64,000 nt of DNA from an uncultured Candidatus Saccharibacteria bacterium (GTDB lineage Bacteria > Patescibacteriota > Saccharimonadia > Saccharimonadales > Saccharimonadaceae). A program made the translations under genes and the position numbers. Shown here piece after piece: positions 34,581-38,348 of this stretch (the first letter of the stretch is position 1; each line of letters opens with the position of its first letter). Below the pieces are notes generated by a model, which had not been told where the DNA came from, searched no databases, and saw only the letters and a list, made by a program, of their open reading frames with translations. The stretch covers positions 120,356 through 184,355 of the forward strand of contig CAMJSX010000001.1 in NCBI GenBank assembly GCA_946408595.1, written 5' to 3'.

Positions 34581-35027
34581 ATGTTCGAAATTGAAAGTAG
34601 AAATCAAGATGAAATTATAATTACCACAAAAAAGACTACCATTAAGTTCAATGTTAAGAATGAGACCATTGACGCTGGTTTGACAGTGGGTAAAATCAAG
34701 GGTCCTGGTGAATTCGAAATTGGCGATGCTACGATTCGTGGTATTATGACGGTGAGCAACAAGACTATTTATGATGTTGAGGTGGGCGGCGTGCATGTCG
34801 GTATCTTGGGCGATATTGAAGAAAACCTCGATGACATCGTAGCTGACATTTTGTGCACCTCTAGTATCCGCGCCATCCGCGAAATTGAACCAAAGCTCAT
34901 TATTTCTATGGGCAACGTTGATGCTATGGTCTCAGAATTAAAGCTTACCGCTCGAACCGAAAAGAAACTCAAAGTCAAATCCCTCGACGCTCTCCCAACG
35001 ACTAAGGAAGTTGTGGTCCTAAACTAA
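34581..35027 (+). CDS. MBL-fold-like protein without metal-binding HxHxDH
   Basis: GLTVGKIKGPGEFEIGDATIRGI...HVGILGDIEENLDD. Confidence 0.45.
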   Translation: MFEIESRNQDEIIITTKKTTIKFNVKNETIDAGLTVGKIKGPGEFEIGDATIRGIMTVSNKTIYDVEVGGVHVGILGDIEENLDDIVADILCTSSIRAIREIEPKLIISMGNVDAMVSELKLTARTEKKLKVKSLDALPTTKEVVVLN

Positions 35028-35695
35028 TGGCTAGCACGGCACTTATTTTTAACGTTCTGAAACTAATGCAAGTTTTTATTATTTTGGCTATTATAGTTTC
35101 TTCGGTTATTATGCATGAGCTTGCCCACGGCCTCGTCGCTTATTGGTTGGGTGACCACACCGCAAAAGACGCCGGTCGCCTTACTTTTAATCCCATCAAA
35201 CATATAGACCCCTTTATGTCGATTTTAGTTCCAGTTATTTTATATCTTTTAAAAGCCCCAGTTTTTGGCGGTGCAAAACCTGTCCCCATTAATTACTATA
35301 ATCTTAAGGGCCGCGAATGGGGCATGGCGCTAGTTGCCGTTGCTGGTCCACTAACTAATTTTTTACTCGCTTTTCTTGCTTTCCTTATCGGGCATTTCAC
35401 CGGCGCTCTTTATGGTAGCGGAGGAGAACTATTAGTATTCGTTTTTACTGAATTCATTTATATCAATCTTGGCTTTATGCTTTTTAATCTTATTCCTATT
35501 CCACCACTCGATGGCTCTCGCGTTCTTTACGTTATTTCTCCCGACTCCGTCCGCAATACTCTAAAATCAATAGAAACATACGGTGTTATCATAGTCTACA
35601 TCCTCATTGTTCTATTTGGCGAAGTTTTCTCTGGCCTGATGATAAATGGTATGGAGGGGATTCTGCAGTTCTTTTATTTCGTCGTTGGCGGGTGA
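35027..35695 (+). CDS. site-2 protease family (M50) zinc metalloprotease
   Basis: IMHELAHGLVAYWLGD; LIPIPPLDGSRVL. Confidence 0.9.
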   Translation: MASTALIFNVLKLMQVFIILAIIVSSVIMHELAHGLVAYWLGDHTAKDAGRLTFNPIKHIDPFMSILVPVILYLLKAPVFGGAKPVPINYYNLKGREWGMALVAVAGPLTNFLLAFLAFLIGHFTGALYGSGGELLVFVFTEFIYINLGFMLFNLIPIPPLDGSRVLYVISPDSVRNTLKSIETYGVIIVYILIVLFGEVFSGLMINGMEGILQFFYFVVGG

Positions 35696-35765
35696 CATGC
35701 TTGGAGGGGGACCCCCAAAATTGTCGTCAATTTTGGGGGAGGAAAGCATGGCAGGACCCGCCAAC
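35684..35765. repeat. 82-bp structured repeat, copy 1
   Basis: GTTGGCGGGT/ACCCGCCAAC closing stem, CATGCTT/AAGCATG, CCCCCAAAATT/AATTTTGGGGG; same unpaired segments as copy 2 at 38267. Confidence 0.85.
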
Positions 35766-35783
35766 GTATGATATAATAATACT

Positions 35784-35912
35784 AGCCCCACCGGCAGCAT
35801 GATTTTCCTGAATAATCATGTTTTAGGGATTTCGTGGCTTACGTCCGTGGATGTAACGCATAAGATTTTACCCACCTTGTATATATTACGGGGAAAACAG
35901 GCCGGCGGGGTT
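35784..35912 (+). ncRNA. candidate structured RNA of unknown class
   Basis: Extended -10 TGATATAAT (35769-35777) places +1 at the closing stem AGCCCCaCCGGC/GCCGGCGGGGTT; internal hairpins CATGATT/AATCATG and TTACGTC/GATGTAA. Confidence 0.5.
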
Positions 35913-35933
35913 CCTTAAAACAAAGAGTGGGCA

Positions 35934-36782
35934 ATGAAACAAAGAATACGCGTAGTTGGAATTATTAAAAACGAGGATGGGGTATTGATTTTGAAACGAA
36001 ACCGAGGCCGTTCTGACGCCCCGGTTTTTTGGGAGCTTCCTACCGGTAAGATAAAGTTTGGCGAACAACCGGAAGAAGCGATGGCGCGCTCACTTTCTGA
36101 GTATACGGGTTATCGGGCGAGCTCGATTAAACTTCGAGACGTGATTACTTTTTTGAATTTAGAGGGCTCTAGTCGTCTCAGTAATCTTTACATTGTTTAT
36201 GATGTGGAAGTGGTGGGTAATGCTCAACCTGTTCCGCGTGACAGATATACCAGCTATAAGTTTATTAAAGATTTCACTACTGCTAATGTTCGCTTGAATG
36301 AGGCTAGCCTTTCGGTATTTGAAATTATGGAGAATAAGGTTGATAATACGCGTATTTCTTCGAGAGAAACGGCAAATTCGGTCAGCATTTATGTGGATGG
36401 CGCCTCGAGAGGGAACCCAGGCCCTGCAGGGGTGGGTTATTATGTTATCGGTGTTGATGGCAAGGTAATTGAGCGGGGCGGGAAGTTTATTGGTTTTGCT
36501 ACCTCTAGAGTGGCTGAGTATTATGCGATGAAAAATGGGGTGGAATTGGCTGTTCAGATGGGTCTCAGATCGGTGCATTTCTTCTCTGATAGCTTGATGG
36601 TAGTTAACCAGTTAAATGGGATTTTCTCGATCAAGAATCCTGACATCATTCCAATTTATACCGCCATACTTAAACTTCTAGATAGTTTTGATAGCGTGTC
36701 GTTTACGCATATTCCACGTATTGAGAATCTAGTGGCTGATTCGGAAGCCAACCAGGCGATCAATAGTATTTTACAGAGGTAG
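35934..36782 (+). CDS. NUDIX-like domain fused to RNase HI domain
   Basis: GKIKFGEQPEEAMARSLSEYTGY (degenerate NUDIX box); IYVDGASRGNPGPAGVGYYV, AEYYAM, FFSDSLMVVNQ, LVADSEANQ. Confidence 0.8.
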   Translation: MKQRIRVVGIIKNEDGVLILKRNRGRSDAPVFWELPTGKIKFGEQPEEAMARSLSEYTGYRASSIKLRDVITFLNLEGSSRLSNLYIVYDVEVVGNAQPVPRDRYTSYKFIKDFTTANVRLNEASLSVFEIMENKVDNTRISSRETANSVSIYVDGASRGNPGPAGVGYYVIGVDGKVIERGGKFIGFATSRVAEYYAMKNGVELAVQMGLRSVHFFSDSLMVVNQLNGIFSIKNPDIIPIYTAILKLLDSFDSVSFTHIPRIENLVADSEANQAINSILQR

Positions 36783-36834
36783 AAAGAGTCTAAAGCATTG
36801 ACTTTTAGCATAACCTGTGATATAATAAGAAGAT

Positions 36835-37359
36835 ATGGTACAGCACCAAAAATCATATAAAAATAGTGTAATTGGCTCGACAGAGCTGATTCAGGTTGCC
36901 GGCATTAAAAAAGTGCCTGCAAAGGTGGATACTGGGGCTGATACTTCGGCGATTTGGGCTTCAAATATTGATATGGAAAAAGACGGCACGCTCGTTTTTT
37001 GTCTATTTGGGCCGAAATCTCCATTTTATACTGGAGAAGTTTTAAAAACCTCAGATTATTTGGTGAGAAATGTGCGTTCTTCACATGGTGATGTACAGAT
37101 TCGTTACAGAGTGAAGTTACCAGTGGTGATTAACGGAGAGGCTTTTTCTACTACTTTTACTCTGGCAAATCGTACACGTAACCATTTTCCAGTTTTGATT
37201 GGACGCCACACACTTGAGGGGAAGTTTTTAGTTGATGTCTCAAGGTCGTGTGTAGAGCGTCCAGCAGCCAAGAAATCCGTACGTTTGAACCAAGAATTAA
37301 GGGAGGATCCTTATGAATTTCATCAGAAATATTTAAAAAACCAGGAGAAAAAAGCATGA
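36835..37359 (+). CDS. RimK-associated retropepsin-like/zinc protease family protein
   Basis: KVPAKVDTGADTSAI; PVLIGRHTLEGKFLVDVSRS; adjacent to a rimK-like gene. Confidence 0.75.
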   Translation: MVQHQKSYKNSVIGSTELIQVAGIKKVPAKVDTGADTSAIWASNIDMEKDGTLVFCLFGPKSPFYTGEVLKTSDYLVRNVRSSHGDVQIRYRVKLPVVINGEAFSTTFTLANRTRNHFPVLIGRHTLEGKFLVDVSRSCVERPAAKKSVRLNQELREDPYEFHQKYLKNQEKKA

Positions 37360-38264
37360 AACTAGCTATTCTATCAAATGGGCCAGCTAACTATTCTACG
37401 AAACGATTAGTAGAGGAGGCCAAGAAGCGCGGGCATGATGTTCACGTAATTAAGTATAAAAACTGTTATTTGTCTCTTGATGACAAGCACCCGGACGTCT
37501 ATTACGGGAGTGAAAAACTGAAGGGTTTTGATGCAATTTTGCCACGTATCTCTAATAATATGACTCGTTACGGCTGTGCTGTGGTGCGCCAATTTGAGAT
37601 GCAAGGGGTCTGGACCTCGGCTTCTTCGGTGGCGATTACTCGGGCGCGTGATAAGTTGCGTGCGGCTCAGATTTTGGCTAAATATGATATTGATACACCA
37701 AAGACTTTGGTATCGAGAAACACCTCTGATATTGATGATTTGCTTGAACAGATTGGCTTGCCGGTGATTATTAAGTTGGCGACTGGTACGCACGGTAACG
37801 GCGTGATTTTGGCAGATACGCGTAAAGCGGCAAAATCGGCGTTGCAGGCGTTTTACCTCTATAATGAGGATGGTACGAACATTCTGTTGCAGGAGTTTAT
37901 TAAAGAGTCGGCTGGTACGGACATCCGTGCATTTGTGGTAGGGAATAAGGTGGTGGCAGCGATGCAAAGAGCTTCTTTAGATGATGATTTTCGCTCTAAC
38001 CTTCACCAAGGTGGCCAAGGTACTCCTGTAAAACTAACGGCCGAGGAAAAGAAGATTGCTTTGAGAGCAGCAAGAGCGATGGGTCTTCATATTTGTGGCG
38101 TTGATCTGATGCGTTCGACTCGTGGACCATTGGTGCTTGAGGTGAATGCTTCACCTGGATTTGGCATTGAAAAGGTGACCGGCAAAGACGTAGCTTCGAA
38201 GATTATTGAGTATATTGAGTTTAATGCGCCGCGCCACAATGGCAAAGACAGGGTAGGAGCCTAG
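37356..38264 (+). CDS. rimK: RimK-family ATP-grasp glutamate ligase
   Basis: VIIKLATGTHGNGVILAD, LLQEFIKESAGTDIRAFVVG, LVLEVNASPGFGIE. Confidence 0.85.
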   Translation: MKLAILSNGPANYSTKRLVEEAKKRGHDVHVIKYKNCYLSLDDKHPDVYYGSEKLKGFDAILPRISNNMTRYGCAVVRQFEMQGVWTSASSVAITRARDKLRAAQILAKYDIDTPKTLVSRNTSDIDDLLEQIGLPVIIKLATGTHGNGVILADTRKAAKSALQAFYLYNEDGTNILLQEFIKESAGTDIRAFVVGNKVVAAMQRASLDDDFRSNLHQGGQGTPVKLTAEEKKIALRAARAMGLHICGVDLMRSTRGPLVLEVNASPGFGIEKVTGKDVASKIIEYIEFNAPRHNGKDRVGA

Positions 38265-38266
38265 TA

Positions 38267-38348
38267 TTGACGGGTGACGGCTCTGGAGGGGGTCCCCCGC
38301 TGAGCGTTAGCGAAGTGGGGGAGGAGAAGAGCCGGCAGGACCCGTCGA
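38267..38348. repeat. 82-bp structured repeat, copy 2
   Basis: TTGACGGGT/ACCCGTCGA, CGGCTCT/AGAGCCG, CCCCCGCT...AGCGaagTGGGGG; shares GGGTGAC, TGGAGGGGGnCCCCC, GGGGGAGGA, GGCAGGACCCG with copy 1. Confidence 0.85.

Follow-up and report, generated by a model that had tools for sequence, protein, structure and literature searches.

Two structured repeats in a Saccharibacteria genome are probably copies of a dispersed palindromic DNA element

Introduction

Are the two similar ~82-bp repeats in a 64,000-nt stretch of a Candidatus Saccharibacteria genome (hereafter the window) members of an RNA family that is selected for its fold, or copies of a DNA element that has been inserted beside genes? The question is raised by their position, as one lies at the end of an M50-type metalloprotease gene, ahead of an RNA-gene-like element, and the other upstream of rnpB. 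An earlier note on this DNA, made from the sequence alone, had described them as a structured two-copy repeat and placed them in connection with the adjoining RNA genes. The evidence presented here indicates that the repeats are very probably copies of a short non-coding palindromic DNA element which inserts, or formerly inserted, at many chromosomal sites. As to its kind, the best reading is a new family of protein-coding palindromes resembling the Rickettsia palindromic elements (RPEs), mobile now or in the past.

Results

Anatomy of the element

Both repeats were located exactly at the positions given in Table 1. They share a nested architecture in which P1 (GGGT/ACCC plus an outer arm), the GA/GCAGG loop, the 7-bp stem P2, the GGAGGGGG(N)/AGGA loop and P3 are stacked in this order. 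The minimum free energies of copies 1 and 2 are -42.0 and -49.6 kcal/mol (z -5.5 and -6.5, respectively), and none of 200 shuffled sequences folded equally well. Across the entire superfamily, the GCAGG junction loop is the best-conserved part; the constant P1/P2 junction, CGGGT-GA-CG / CG-GCAGG-ACCCG, is written CGGGTGACG...CGGCAGGACCCG, and the outermost constant part among copies is CGGGTGAC...GGCAGGACCCG. In Saccharibacteria, ACATNGR forms the left and YCNAGA the right limit of conservation, and these flanks mark the ends of the element. Elements are ~75-105 bp long with an interior that differs by lineage, and deletion derivatives exist, including forms of 52-56 nt that are missing P3.

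Table 1. Coordinates of the two window copies, their parts, the overlapping gene and the shortened copies of the same genome.
Feature	Position	Strand	Basis or remark
M50-type metalloprotease ORF	35027-35695	+	stop codon TGA (35693-35695) supplied by copy 1
Copy 1, palindromic element, full, ~82 bp	35684-35765	+	fold; covariance-model hit G000:C1:156039-156121
Copy 1 P1 5' arm GTTGGCGGGT	35684-35693	+	fold
Copy 1 GA	35694-35695	+	faces GCAGG
Copy 1 P2 5' arm CATGCTT	35696-35702	+	fold
Copy 1 inner loop, 5' side GGAGGGGGA	35703-35711	+	faces AGGA at 35740-35743; invariant within subfamily
Copy 1 P3 hairpin	35712-35739	+	fold
Copy 1 P2 3' arm AAGCATG	35744-35750	+	fold
Copy 1 junction loop GCAGG	35751-35755	+	conservation; faces GA at 35694-35695
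Copy 1 P1 3' arm ACCCGCCAAC	35756-35765	+	fold
Copy 2, palindromic element, full, ~82 bp	38267-38348	+	fold; covariance-model hit G000:C1:158621-158705
Copy 2 P1 5' arm TTGACGGGT	38267-38275	+	fold
Copy 2 GA	38276-38277	+	faces GCAGG
Copy 2 P2 5' arm CGGCTCT	38278-38284	+	fold
Copy 2 P3 hairpin	38294-38321	+	fold
Copy 2 P2 3' arm AGAGCCG	38328-38334	+	fold
Copy 2 junction loop GCAGG	38335-38339	+	conservation; faces GA at 38276-38277
Copy 2 P1 3' arm ACCCGTCGA	38340-38348	+	fold
Shortened copy 1 of 3			frr-uppS (names assigned by eye)
Shortened copy 2 of 3 (L065)	G000:C5:23260-23313		3' end of putative rplO (name assigned by eye), then T6
Shortened copy 3 of 3			adjoins tRNA gene

Copies and covariation in Saccharibacteria

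A tight pattern matched the 738-kb genome exactly twice, at the window copies, and a looser one found many elements elsewhere in genomes of the same genus. The covariance-model search of relatives that the earlier note had proposed, with a model built from 13 copies, then yielded copies in 22 of the 246 genomes of the order, most of the sequence data being metagenome-assembled genomes, with a maximum of 17 copies per genome. Five copies reside in the window's own genome: the description as a two-copy repeat holds for the full-length form, but three shortened copies accompany it and more are found in relatives. One of these shortened copies (L065), located after a ribosomal-protein-like gene and followed by T6, may act as an intrinsic terminator.

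When the 13 copies were aligned without the model, 98% of stem cells were paired and 43 were double-changed, as compared to 11 in shuffles. For 100 distinct copies, 93.6% of stem cells were paired with 489 double changes versus 148 in shuffles, the alignment in this case being fitted to the covariance model and hence biased towards structure. The paired, covarying stems and invariant internal loops of the two copies were confirmed. The earlier note did not recognize the family, and Rfam, at gathering and relaxed thresholds, likewise returned nothing at the element; rnpB was recovered in the same search of the window.

Genomic context and empty sites in sister genomes

The stop codon of the M50 gene lies within copy 1, as had been noted before, and M50 homologues without the element stop at about the same residue. 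Copy 2 lies, again as described, at the end of a coding sequence, beginning a few bases past the ATP-grasp stop codon and upstream of rnpB. The gene order M50, RNA gene, NUDIX/RNase H, protease-like, ATP-grasp and rnpB is kept in two sister genomes (G006 and G004). Both window copies are absent from this syntenic DNA, whereas rnpB and the RNA gene at 35784 are present. A link of the repeats to the neighboring RNA genes is therefore rejected on synteny, and the view of a structured RNA tied to these genes is not supported, as copies elsewhere lie within protein genes.

The neighbor of copy 1, at 35784-35925, is itself a conserved RNA-gene-like element of ~135 nt with its own TATAAT, situated ahead of the NUDIX/RNase H gene. 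Compensated changes occur in its outer stem in G006, G003, G010, G004 and G018 (loci L117-L119, L123 and L126), and it has no Rfam match.

RNA fold or DNA palindrome

Under selection on RNA, G-U pairs should be tolerated and A-C mismatches should not. The mismatches in P1 and P2 comprise 35 G-T and 34 A-C, i.e., no preference for G-U. Because the two classes are equal in these stems, the covariation appears to be better explained by palindromy at the DNA level. In P3, 36 G-U stand against 15 A-C, most of them (29 G-U) in one column, and the plus-strand RNA is more stable than the minus-strand RNA in 82 of 100 copies, so that RNA may make a contribution through P3. Template switching during replication reportedly gives rise to stems and preserves them with compensatory changes, as documented for RNA genes (PMC8794818).

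These observations bear on the proposal of a structured RNA family, cis-regulatory or a small RNA, whose fold is selected and which acts near rnpB and the 35784 RNA gene. Its strong fold and covariation, invariant internal loops, G-U-rich P3 pair and the greater stability of the plus strand are what such a family would display. Against this stand copies that share no downstream gene, occur on either strand of genes and lie within ORFs, the missing element beside the same RNA genes in sisters, P1 and P2 without G-U excess over A-C and the absent Rfam match, which together render an RNA family very improbable. Of the selection on a fold suggested earlier, the covariation and constrained loops stand, while the P1 and P2 mismatches favor DNA-level palindromy.

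Copies inside protein-coding genes

Nearly half of the covariance-model hits (47/102) lie inside open coding sequence. The combined set comprises 228 distinct copies, of which 100 are located within open genes. Both counts require at least 45 open aa on each side, and the reading frame continues through the copies whichever strand of the gene they occupy. The host genes encode IleRS and TopA (two sites each), PriA, Obg, YchF, LepA, ValRS, LeuRS, LigA, TruB, QueA, MurB, a PBP, a NifS-like protein and others, names that come from reading the sequences, with IleRS alone confirmed by PDB matches. Homologues without the element show a clean in-frame gap at the tested sites, most of these comparisons relying on diverged relatives so that the insertion borders are approximate. 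Compared with solved IleRS sequences, site 2 falls where 8c8u passes from residue 506 to 507, immediately ahead of the WFDSGSMPF stretch. Where the same IleRS or NifS site is filled in different species, this may reflect either a single insertion passed on by descent or recurrent insertion into the same loop.

Judging from the reading frames, the inserts are most likely translated, since a spliced or bypassed element would need no open frame. A search for frame-broken genes gave eight candidates which, apart from one ambiguous locus (L352, between MutY and a NUDIX domain), proved to be gene boundaries or a chance hit; none was confirmed, leaving splicing without a supporting case. Location in essential, conserved genes and a conserved RNA-capable fold would suit an element that removes itself, as an RNA intron or by translational bypass, and leaves the protein unchanged. 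Yet self-removal would free both the frame and the stop codons, and the ~100 copies located in genes keep an open reading frame with no confirmed break, which makes this scenario extremely unlikely.

The same protein loops were also observed to hold unrelated repeat-like inserts in the same genus (L242, L231, L233, L238, L241 and L235), namely those of IleRS, the NifS-like protein, MurB, PriA and an exonuclease-like protein; example peptides end ...PRDDGRERTG... and ...ANSRAAALRNAPS.... The genus seems to host several families of coding palindromes. At IleRS site 2 of G013 (L151), an insertion of ~175 residues resembles a separate phosphatase-like domain.

Relics, clustering and element ends

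A 15-nt relic, CTGGACGGGTCCATG, is found in the NifS-like gene of the window's own genome, at the site where G231 carries a full copy, and a second partial relic is located at L203. Copies lie within 4 kb of each other in nine pairs as compared to 3.7 expected (P 0.009). Within genomes, the top three pairs by similarity (0.96-1.0) each consist of near neighbors, whereas distant pairs reach at most 0.93; the close, near-identical pairs suggest local copying. There was no clear enrichment of target-site duplications around the Saccharibacteria copies.

Distribution beyond Saccharibacteria

The pattern CGGGTGACGN{44,74}CGGCAGGACCCG, run on GTDB species genomes, revealed that the junction recurs in several phyla. 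Among the matches listed are Saccharibacteria (many from ruminant gut), Omnitrophota, Deltaproteobacteria, Roizmanbacteria, Gottesmanbacteria, Daviesbacteria, Uhrbacteria, Kerfeldbacteria, rumen metagenome-assembled genomes labeled Bacillota and others; a handful of those listed have no stems and represent chance, and none is a Rickettsia record. Within the phylum of the window, the pattern matched 11 of 379 genomes and a reversed control pattern none of them. The arms and P2 of the matches from other phyla covary well above shuffled pairs, as they do in Saccharibacteria. Outside Saccharibacteria, some copies sit between inverted arms of unique sequence, 9-16 bp in length; at L253, L248, L310, L254 and L270 these arms measure 11-16 bp, which would suit a palindromic target or one copied in inverted orientation. 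Plasmid and phage collections contained no match to the element, and the single match in viral sequences was chance-like.

In relatives of Roizmanbacteria G273 (L374-L388), a glycosyltransferase loop between DADE and PRKNY holds different palindromes per genome, one of which (L375, GAGTTCAGGATGAC) resembles a CGTC REP.

Discussion

Insertion is concluded from sites that are empty in sisters and homologues, and the dispersed occurrence, the variable copy number between related genomes and the missing orthologous sites point to a mobile-type element, no transposition event having been observed. Gene-breaking insertions would be purged, and the surviving copies would be those in intergenic regions, at gene ends or in tolerant protein loops. 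Copy 1 of the window would represent a gene-end survivor that donates a stop codon, and survivors within genes would add roughly 25-35 residues to protein loops. The stems may be kept palindromic on DNA because copying or recognition acts on a single-strand hairpin, because template switching at replication restores the pairing of the arms, or for both reasons.

How the element moves is a separate matter, and a REP/MITE-type element moved in trans by a specific transposase (Y1/RAYT or other), now lost or residing elsewhere, on another replicon or in the microbial host, would concern this mechanism and not the kind of element. The element is REP-like in anatomy, its hairpin carrying an internal bulge and short tails, and RAYT-like Y1 proteins exist in the carriers G268, G272, G273 and G275. 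However, Y1_Tnp (RAYT-type), the sole transposase family looked for, is absent from G000, G155, G005, G217, G231 and G263, which include the highest-copy genus-mates, and none of ten Y1 loci that were read has an element next to it. A RAYT/Y1 transposase as mobilizer was rejected on these grounds, as it is absent from the main carriers and elsewhere unlinked to the element. With neither a GTAG tag nor a target-site duplication found, and no plasmid or phage match, movement by a transposase in trans is possible but not favored.

We propose, still more tentatively, that an ancient superfamily spreads across phyla without a dedicated transposase via the copying of single-stranded DNA hairpins, with the junction as the signal and the arms derived from the target in inverted form. 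Either local template switching during replication or some general host enzyme would carry out such copying. Alternatively, template switching at replication might, with no transposition at all, have made the hairpins where they stand and restored their pairing there. The compensatory stem changes reported for this process (PMC8794818) and the unique-sequence arms in other phyla fit such an origin, but GA/GCAGG loops and, in Saccharibacteria, ACAT/AGA tails conserved at unrelated sites need a shared source, and formation in place is accordingly very improbable.

Among known systems, the preferred reading of an inserting coding palindrome is closest to the RPEs, described as multi-copy palindromic repeats of ~100 bp, in frame within unrelated, often essential genes, with no known transposase for the CGTC-type RPEs (Ogata et al. 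2000, 2002, summarized in PMC10969869 and PMC3733652). Like these, the present element is palindromic, multi-copy, dispersed and in frame in unrelated genes whose homologues lack it. It differs in its hosts, which span several phyla and include CPR bacteria, Omnitrophota, Deltaproteobacteria and others, and in its nested three-stem form with the conserved CGGGTGACG/CGGCAGGACCCG junction. In sequence it is apparently distinct from the RPEs.

CGTC REPs consist of a single 8-9 bp hairpin whose stem starts with AT pairs; their terminal CGTC is unpaired and their tail CCA-like (PMC3733652). The element is likewise a short palindrome with intragenic copies, and its reverse complement has CGTC beside a stem. 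It does not show the tag, stem and tail that define CGTC REPs, as the CG of its GACG is paired in P2, and it has three stems, other loops and two to three times the length; Y1_Tnp, the one transposase family searched for, is unlinked to it. With GTAG REPs and their RAYTs it shares dispersed hairpins, but it ends in ACATNGR / YCNAGA and has no GTAG, and RAYT is absent in the high-copy genomes tested. Bacterial MITEs are small non-autonomous repeats able to fuse in frame with genes (PMC10969869). The element resembles them in being a small repeat in frame with genes; around it there is no clear enrichment of target-site duplications, and no parental IS is known for it. As for the alternatives that the earlier note had set against its own reading, further copies and covariation were found and an Rfam match was not, while a REP/MITE-type family, the remaining one, largely applies.

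Coding palindromes in essential proteins have been described mainly in Rickettsia and its relatives. To our knowledge, the question of how they move is unsolved. The kind of element reported here is already known; what is notable is its cross-phylum range, its defined core and its relics. The mismatch pattern, which indicates DNA-level palindromy, also serves as a warning that strong covariation alone is no proof of RNA. Lineage-specific loop inserts of IleRS, TopA, PriA and other proteins in CPR genomes are explained by the element, and a family defined by its core in ultrasmall CPR bacteria and other phyla offers, in its empty sites, relics and near-identical local pairs, natural experiments on coding palindromes.
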